The translations under genes were made by a program, and so were the position numbers. Of a DNA stretch of 58,082 nt, positions 4,314-46,488 are shown piece after piece. This stretch comes from Helicobacteraceae bacterium (lineage in GTDB: Bacteria > Campylobacterota > Campylobacteria > Campylobacterales > Sulfurimonadaceae): the NCBI GenBank assembly GCA_015493495.1, contig WGDB01000160.1, forward strand, positions 1 through 58,082, read 5' to 3'. How positions within the stretch are numbered: position 1 is the first letter of the stretch; each line of letters opens with the position of its first letter. The notes beneath the pieces are model-generated. The model worked only from the letters and a program-made list of their open reading frames with translations. It had not been told where the DNA came from and searched no databases.

Positions 4314-4706
4314 TTGAATTGGGATGAAAGCGGATGCTTTCACGTTAATCAATGCGTCACCGCTTGCTCTTCATCTCTAGCATCTGCAAGACCGAACGGA
4401 GTTTCATTTCTGCCGTGAAGAAAATGACACTGTCCGACCGTAGGGAGTTTGGCATTTTTAGGCAGAAATTAAACGCAGTGAGGGAAGTCGGTAGCTACCG
4501 ATCCTGAAGCCCGCTAGAGGCGATTTTTCTGTTTATCTTTTTTTCGAGTAAAAAAGAGAAAGGGCAGCAAGATCAAGTTTATAAGCTCAAAGAAGTTTAA
4601 AAGCAAAAAGCAATAAAAGTAGATTCTGAATCAAGTTGACCAAAGGAAATGCCCTCGGGTGCATAATGACGAAGTTAAAAGTTCAAAGTGACAAAATATG
4701 ATATCC

Positions 4707-45680: not shown

Positions 45681-45845
45681 AAGGCTCAAGCTTTGGTGCT
45701 ATTTGCACCAGCGCCCGAGCAGACTCAGTTCACTTCACAATGTATCGATGTACGTCTTCACATCCGGCACAACTTCCTTCAACATTGAAACTTTTATCAC
45801 TACATACGTTCGATGCACTTTGCTGTTGAGATTCTACTTCTTTAT

Positions 45846-46135
45846 GGGTACCTCTAAAAACTCTAACGATCCGCAGAGGGAAGAAAAAGAGATGAGATCG
45901 TGCAAAATCTTTTTTGCACCCAAGGGTATTTCCTTTGGTCAGTCATAGCCGTAGCTATGAGGATAAAAAGTTTTGTGTGAGATCGCTCTTTTTATCCCTC
46001 CCTTCGGGCACTAGAGAGGAATCCACACTCGGCGTTGTCCTTTCTCGCCTTAGCTACAGCTAGGGCTTCAAAAGGTCGCCTTGATTGTGAACTCCTCTCT
46101 AGCGCTGAGGATGGCTAGGGTTTTTAGAGGTGCCC
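45846..46135. mobile_element. MITE-like hairpin-rich element, 290 bases
   Basis: Terminal arms 45846-45872 (starting GGGTACCTCTAAAAAC) and 46109-46135 are inverted copies with 23 Watson-Crick and two G-T pairs out of 27. TTAT flanks both ends (45842-45845 and 46136-46139), as a target duplication would. Inside are perfect hairpins at 45900-45919, 45943-45960 and 45961-45997, one at 45920-45938 with one G-T pair, a C(TTCG)G loop near 46002, and a long arm 46011-46102. There is no transposase. The flanking DNA 45681-45845 and 46136-46488 holds no gene I can support. Confidence 0.65.
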
Positions 46136-46488
46136 TTATAATATTTTTGTTCATTAATTTGTAAAAATCAGTACAATTTGTGGAGATATGCCTCGTGTGT
46201 TTTTGTTTATTTCTCCACTAAGTGAAGGGTAACAGCTTTACAATTATGATGCCATCAAAATGTTTTATAACCTGGAGAACGTGACATTTTCTAGGAGAAT
46301 CCAATTACAAATGCGTTAGCAGTCTTTTTAACACTCTAACCCTTGCATCCAGCGCTTGTGTGTTTATAAGTTCTGTGTGCATACTTCTATAGAGGGTTCA
46401 ATTGATTTGTTAGTGTGATAATACAGAGGAGAGAGCCCAACACAATGTAGTGTTAGGCTGAAGAGAGCATAGCGTGGGCTATCTAGAT

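Follow-up and report, generated by a model that had tools for sequence, protein, structure and literature searches.

A Campylobacterales MITE with a conserved T-shaped core and ends that may have been exchanged among transposons

The stretch of DNA analyzed here (the window) comprises 58,082 nucleotides of a Helicobacteraceae bacterium of the Sulfurimonadaceae (contig WGDB01000160.1 of assembly GCA_015493495.1). At positions 45846-46135, 165 bp downstream of a pstS-like gene (PF12849) and with a convergent gene (PF03601) on its far side, lies a 290-bp element between two copies of TTAT (Table 1). A first-pass annotation had given the coordinates, the length of 290 bases and the flanking TTAT exactly, and its description of terminal arms paired over 27 positions, with two G-T wobbles and two mismatches, was reproduced in full; a repeat search of the element returned arms of 34 nt at 82%. 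The octamer TGAGATCG, which had been noted at 45893 and 45978, is present at both positions, and its recurrence follows from the self-complementary GATC contained in the two sides of arm A.

The element folds into an outer stem, two long arms (A and B) and a small hinge, CCC-TTC-GGG. Its RNA minimum free energy is -138.1 kcal/mol, whereas shuffled sequences give -84.9 +/- 5.1 (z -10.5; 0 of 200). The opposite strand also folds strongly (z -11.5 versus shuffles). Both arm tip loops sit between AGC and GCT. The usual length of the element is 266 bp, and the copy in the window is longer by the 24-nt hairpin at the tip of arm A. What had been read as a C(TTCG)G loop exists as sequence, in the form of the hinge, but not as a conserved tetraloop: the middle three bases vary freely among relatives (TTC, GCA, GTA, TGC and AAA), and a conserved UUCG tetraloop was rejected on that ground. 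A coding role was likewise rejected, since no open frame is common to the copies; no transposase ORF was found, and the median longest open run is 32-52 codons over the six frames.

Table 1. Features of the element and its flanks, in window coordinates.
Feature	Position	Strand	Remarks
Left target duplication copy, TTAT	45842..45845	.	G006 has one TTAT at the unoccupied site
Left terminal inverted repeat, GGGTACCTCTAAAAACTCTAACGATCC (consensus GGGCACCTCTAAAAACCCTAG)	45846..45872	+	Matches both ends of the same-genome IS5-family IS
Arm A, long hairpin, tip CATAGCCGTAGCTATG	45876..46000	+	Helices 4 and 5 of the shared fold
Extra 24-nt hairpin CACCCAAGGGTATTTCCTTTGGTC at arm A tip	45917..45940	+	Alignment gap; missing in the 266-bp form
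Hinge CCC-TTC-GGG joining the arms	46000..46008	+	Constant CCC and GGG around three variable bases
Arm B, long hairpin with conserved internal loop, tip TTAGCTACAGCTAG	46007..46106	+	Helices 6-9
Conserved GCGTT of arm B internal loop	46032..46036	+	
Conserved GCCTTG opposite GCGTT in arm B	46078..46083	+	
Right terminal inverted repeat, GGGCACCTCTAAAAACCCTAGCCATCC on the minus strand	46109..46135	-	
Right target duplication copy, TTAT	46136..46139	.	Single TTAT at the empty site

About nine full-length or near-complete copies, along with several partial ones, occur in the host genome at 83-98% identity, and matches (E 0.1 or better) were found in 60 of 100 relatives, among which perfect 18-mer terminal inverted repeats are also present; other copies with the same ends, which the first-pass annotation had proposed to search for, do exist. 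Identical 4-bp flanks were found at 36 of 78 elements bounded by terminal inverted repeats (TIRs), versus 7 with shuffled flanks, while 5-bp duplications were found in none; the commonest of the duplications are TTAA, TTTA and TAAA. In a wider set, 45 of 100 elements had 4-bp duplications. When 84,980 species genomes were searched for an exact pattern of both ends, 46 elements came up, all in Campylobacterota records, belonging to Sulfurimonas, Sulfuricurvum, Sulfurovum, Sulfurospirillum, Arcobacter, and Helicobacteraceae or Campylobacterales MAGs. No element copy was found in the plasmid, phage and viral-contig collections, and there is accordingly no sign of spread on sequenced phages or plasmids. 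The element is thus a MITE: it is short and multi-copy, has inverted repeats and a target duplication, and shares its genome with an IS whose ends match its own.

An empty site, of the kind that the first-pass annotation had proposed to look for in related genomes, was found as well. It lies in G006, which belongs to the same genus: the flanks (92-95% identical) are joined there by exactly one TTAT, without the element. This site led to the rejection of a fixed, immobile regulatory element of the pstS region, a possibility raised by the element's position relative to the pstS-like gene and now left with practically no probability; the element is missing at the same site in this sister species even though both flanks are so similar, and its copies adjoin unrelated genes. 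Among 91 elements, neighboring genes were divergent in 31 cases, co-directional in 52 and convergent in 8, and the predominance of divergent over convergent pairs is what insertion into AT-rich regions upstream of genes should produce. A terminator role was also rejected, given that no terminator-like site was found and that convergent pairs are the rarest setting (8/91).

A candidate source of the transposase lies in the same genome, where an intact IS of 1252 bp (G000:C9:8914-10165) has the ends GGGCATCTCTAAAAAC and encodes a transposase of 342 aa that matches NCBIfam NF033581 (IS5 family, IS5_4) with an E value of 4.8e-82; the earlier suggestion of an IS5-like transposase was therefore well placed. 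Transposases of this type, or fragments of them (at least 55% identity), occur at 17 loci; 15 of these carry the same end sequence at one side or both, and several have 4-bp duplications (TTAA, TAAA, TTAT, TATA or ATAT). One of these IS loci is on a plasmid of Aliarcobacter faecis. The matching end sequence was absent at the IS5 loci checked with roughly 30% transposase identity. The MITE is present in nine of 14 genomes with the matching IS versus 120 of 385 without it (Fisher p 0.013). The matching IS was found in only 14 of the 399 genomes searched, and many element-bearing genomes lack it, including the complete genome G002, which has the MITEs and no such transposase.

We infer from this correspondence that the element is moved by the IS5-family transposase. 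A DDE transposase of the IS5_4 type, encoded elsewhere, would recognize the ends GGGCACCTCTAAAAAC and would insert the element into AT-rich targets with a 4-bp duplication. The element shares its terminal repeats and 4-bp duplication with IS5-family ISs (NF033581, IS5_4) and differs from them in lacking both a DDE transposase of its own and any internal similarity. BLASTN of the IS versus the element matched only the terminal 18 bp, and the interior is, as far as this comparison goes, not a remnant or deletion derivative of the partner IS. The same observations bear on a rival explanation, namely that this is an ordinary MITE, a deleted or hijacked IS5-type element with a functionless interior whose fold is upheld by template switching, or quasipalindrome correction. 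The matching IS and the 4-bp duplications are what this explanation predicts, but the want of interior similarity past the ends is not, and with the evidence below we regard it as unlikely.

The fold itself extends well beyond the host. A common T-shaped structure was found in 100 full-length copies representing seven family codes of Campylobacterales; in their alignment, which was fitted to the covariance model, paired cells amounted to 94.6% (shuffles, 73.6%; slid alignments, 38-49%), and both sides had changed at 83 of 90 pairs. A MAFFT alignment of 63 copies had compensatory changes in 69 of the 90 predicted pairs. An independent MAFFT alignment of 47 non-redundant sequences (below 85% identity to one another, with a median pairwise identity of 59%) gave an alifold score of -242.6, whereas shuffled columns gave -21.8 +/- 4.0; in 78 of its 111 pairs, two or more Watson-Crick types occur that differ on both sides. 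Between nearest neighbors, 43% of changed pairs had changed on both sides, as opposed to 5% expected if the sides were independent. Length is similarly constrained, with 92 of the 100 copies measuring 264-272 bp and the other eight 287-294 bp; longer copies seen in the alignments have an extra hairpin at the arm A tip. By the covariance model, 129 of the 399 Campylobacterales genomes contain the family, spread over 34 of 88 genera and 12 family codes; these counts denote presence rather than copy number, as five or six candidates were scored per genome. In a search of a phylum sample, every match fell within Campylobacterales.

Covariation of this extent could, in principle, arise mutationally, as template-switch correction between hairpin arms could raise it without any selection on function. 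Two observations are in keeping with such an ordinary MITE: the compensating changes are strand-symmetric, and paired columns change nearly as fast as unpaired ones (0.097 versus 0.115). Speaking against it, fixed non-Watson-Crick positions persist (TG in 47 of 47 sequences at pair 166-209), and the length and the motifs GCGTT, GCCTTG and CCCnnnGGG are conserved between families despite the low overall identity. Correction between arms may genuinely account for part of the covariation, but not for the conserved loops, the length or the shared core.

Another possibility is that selection acts on plus-strand RNA, the element being a structured RNA (a small RNA or a cis-acting processing element) carried on a transposon. 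The very stable fold and the covariation at almost every pair would suit this, and some results lean to the plus strand: alifold was slightly better for it (-242.6 versus -231.4 for the minus), the fixed wobbles give it a slight lead (six wobble-rich pairs favor the plus strand and three the minus), and for the GGGCACC class the covariance model scored the plus strand about 100 bits over the minus. Opposed to this, AC is as frequent as GU among single-sided changes in close copies (57 versus 58), with 158 AC and 124 GU wobbles in shared pairs, and with counts this near to symmetry RNA selection on one strand is not demonstrated. Moreover, Rfam contains no match to the element (the best sub-threshold score was 19 bits of the 70 needed), no promoter or terminator was found above chance, and in several end classes the motifs occur on both strands. 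A structured RNA acting from the plus strand is on these grounds somewhat unlikely. Of the first-pass suggestion of a large structured RNA, the strongly conserved fold stands, while strand-specific selection on RNA is not evident.

The core of the family is not confined to one set of ends. The same core was found, in register, inside at least ten other terminal sequences besides the window element's own, and its fixed motifs (CCCnnnGGG, CGTT and GCCTTG) occupy fixed positions in most end classes, an arrangement at odds with an ordinary MITE. Among divergent model matches, the terminal repeats around the core include AGACTTCTTGCAAAAC, CTGACCTTACGCACC, TGAACCCTCTGAATAACC, ACCGCACCAGGTAA and TTACCCCAATTAGG; further ones are GAACCTTTCTCC, ACTACCAGCTACC, AGTAATGAGGCATAAATA, several ATACCA types, AACTGATGTTACGCAG and TTAAGTTACAGACC. 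Boundary refinement runs too far in AT-rich flanks, and among the rarer end classes a target duplication (TA) is established only for the nested AGTAATG element described below. When the ends were removed, plain BLASTN linked cores of different end classes, such as L045 and L227 (89% over 215 bp) and L205 and L298 (87% over 217 bp), along with other cross-class pairs, so that the shared core is not only the model recognizing palindromes. In several end classes, CGTT and GCCTTG occur on both strands, amounting to two inverted copies of arm B. No transposase was found for the AGACTTC ends, where the adjoining candidate ORFs, judged by reading, looked unlike transposases.

A tree of 102 cores with 15 end labels called for at least 19 end changes, although the tree was quickly made, has long branches and many weak forks, and holds one to three rows for most of the rare classes. 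Any tree with 15 labels needs at least 14 changes, so that repeated exchange within a pair of classes is argued for solely by the changes beyond 14 and by the supported nested cases. In the latter, L045 (GGGCACC) is nested in an AGACTTC clade with a support of 97, and L298 (TGAACCC) is nested in a GGGCACC clade with supports of 99 and 96. The GGGCACC and AGACTTC ends are identical at 9 of 16 positions, which means that descent, instead of exchange, may connect some of the classes. On the scheme that we propose, an ancient T-shaped core has kept its pairing and overall length (about 266 bp with ends) across Campylobacterales, and its occurrence in many terminal sequences would reflect ends exchanged repeatedly, presumably allowing the core to ride on whichever IS is present; the mechanism of the exchange is one that we infer rather than have seen. 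That the core is an ancient, orientation-independent, non-coding satellite of about 220 nt, swapping ends among many unrelated transposons while keeping its fold and length, is a proposal whose chances we put just short of even.

Taken together, a MITE moved by an IS5-type transposase, with an ancient folded core seated in exchanged ends, is the best explanation and a probable one. The folded core itself is most likely what is kept, and the motifs on both strands, together with about equal wobble changes, suggest that what is maintained is the fold rather than just the RNA of one strand. As to its use, we tentatively favor a hairpin device acting in transcripts from either side, for example an RNA-processing or insulating device that makes insertions tolerable. 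A role in transposition as single-stranded DNA or a cruciform is nearly as likely, though it too is less likely than not; in such a case, hairpins extruded from single-stranded or supercoiled DNA would bring the ends into contact for the transposase or be bound by a host protein. The two-fold symmetric layout of several classes, the strand-symmetric substitutions and the strong folding of both strands would all be amenable to a DNA role. On the other side, no DNA-binding partner was identified, and palindromes of 52 bp and 57 bp with the same ends occur, one of them with a TAAA duplication. Such ends-only elements suggest that jumping does not require the core. Order-wide conservation and the exchange of ends, in any event, go beyond the first-pass reading.

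MITEs are usually viewed as the short-lived wreckage of one IS, and we know of no MITE with exchangeable ends. In the present family, a detailed fold and a near-fixed length have persisted across an order in a non-coding element, whose core sits inside many different transposon ends. If the ends have really been exchanged, the persisting unit would be the core and not the ends, and the benefit that a conserved fold brings to a non-coding parasite would become a testable question. The family would also constitute a large, unlisted group of structured nucleic acids in Sulfurimonas-, Sulfurospirillum- and Arcobacter-type bacteria.

Prokaryotic MITEs moved in trans, such as Correia/NEMIS, as treated in the portions of PMC10969869 drawn on here, resemble the element in being short and non-coding, with inverted repeats, a short duplication, a stable stem-loop fold and ends matching an IS of the same genome; unlike in such MITEs, the interior fold here is conserved across an order at about 59% identity, with near-fixed length and many terminal repeats. 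The CIR elements of Caulobacter and relatives are closest in shape, having two long hairpin arms and a linker, and their secondary structure is also conserved between genera; as described in PMC2229807, they are about 110 bp, occur in alpha-proteobacteria, have no stem from pairing of the two ends, and carry GANTC at the terminal loop, whereas the tip loops of the window element do not. BOX elements of Streptococcus pneumoniae, as excerpted from PMC3049150, are likewise modular, structured and probably mobile in trans, and are sometimes transcribed, but they range from 67 to 637 bp with a variable number of boxB units, in contrast to the nearly fixed length seen here across genera. A conserved core in exchangeable ends was described in none of the portions consulted of PMC10969869, PMC2229807 and PMC3049150, a comparison that covered openly licensed literature.

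Several related structures were encountered along the way. A 538-bp element (L056 1505-2042, also in L361) is a 266-bp GGGCACC element whose arm A holds a second T-shaped element; the inner element has different ends (AGTAATG) and TA flanks, about 266 bp are left when it is cut out, and a solo copy of the inner type occurs as L339 in G010. Shorter forms with the window element's ends include bare palindromes of 52-57 bp (L121 307-358, L017 1505-1561 and L071 280-331) and one-arm forms of 162-164 bp (L122 399-560 and L083 299-462), and some of these short elements have 4-bp duplications. AGACTTC ends paired about 135 bp apart recur in several genomes (L306-L310, L322 and L328) and apparently represent a separate short MITE without the two-armed core. 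Genome G046 contains 101 GGGCACC-type end sequences, many at contig starts, and no PF01609 transposase was found there; the abundance of ends suggests recent amplification, with assembly breaks at the element. A dispersed short hairpin, approximately CACCCRAGGGCATTTCCTTTGGTCA, has 19 copies in the host genome, occurs in relatives as well, and looks REP-like; within the window it is found at 4640-4658 (minus strand) and 45920-45938 (plus strand), the latter being the 24-nt insert of arm A. Finally, the copies L033, L098 and L001 each have a short sequence inserted at the same arm A loop, the three being unlike one another, as if the tip of this hairpin were a preferred insertion point.
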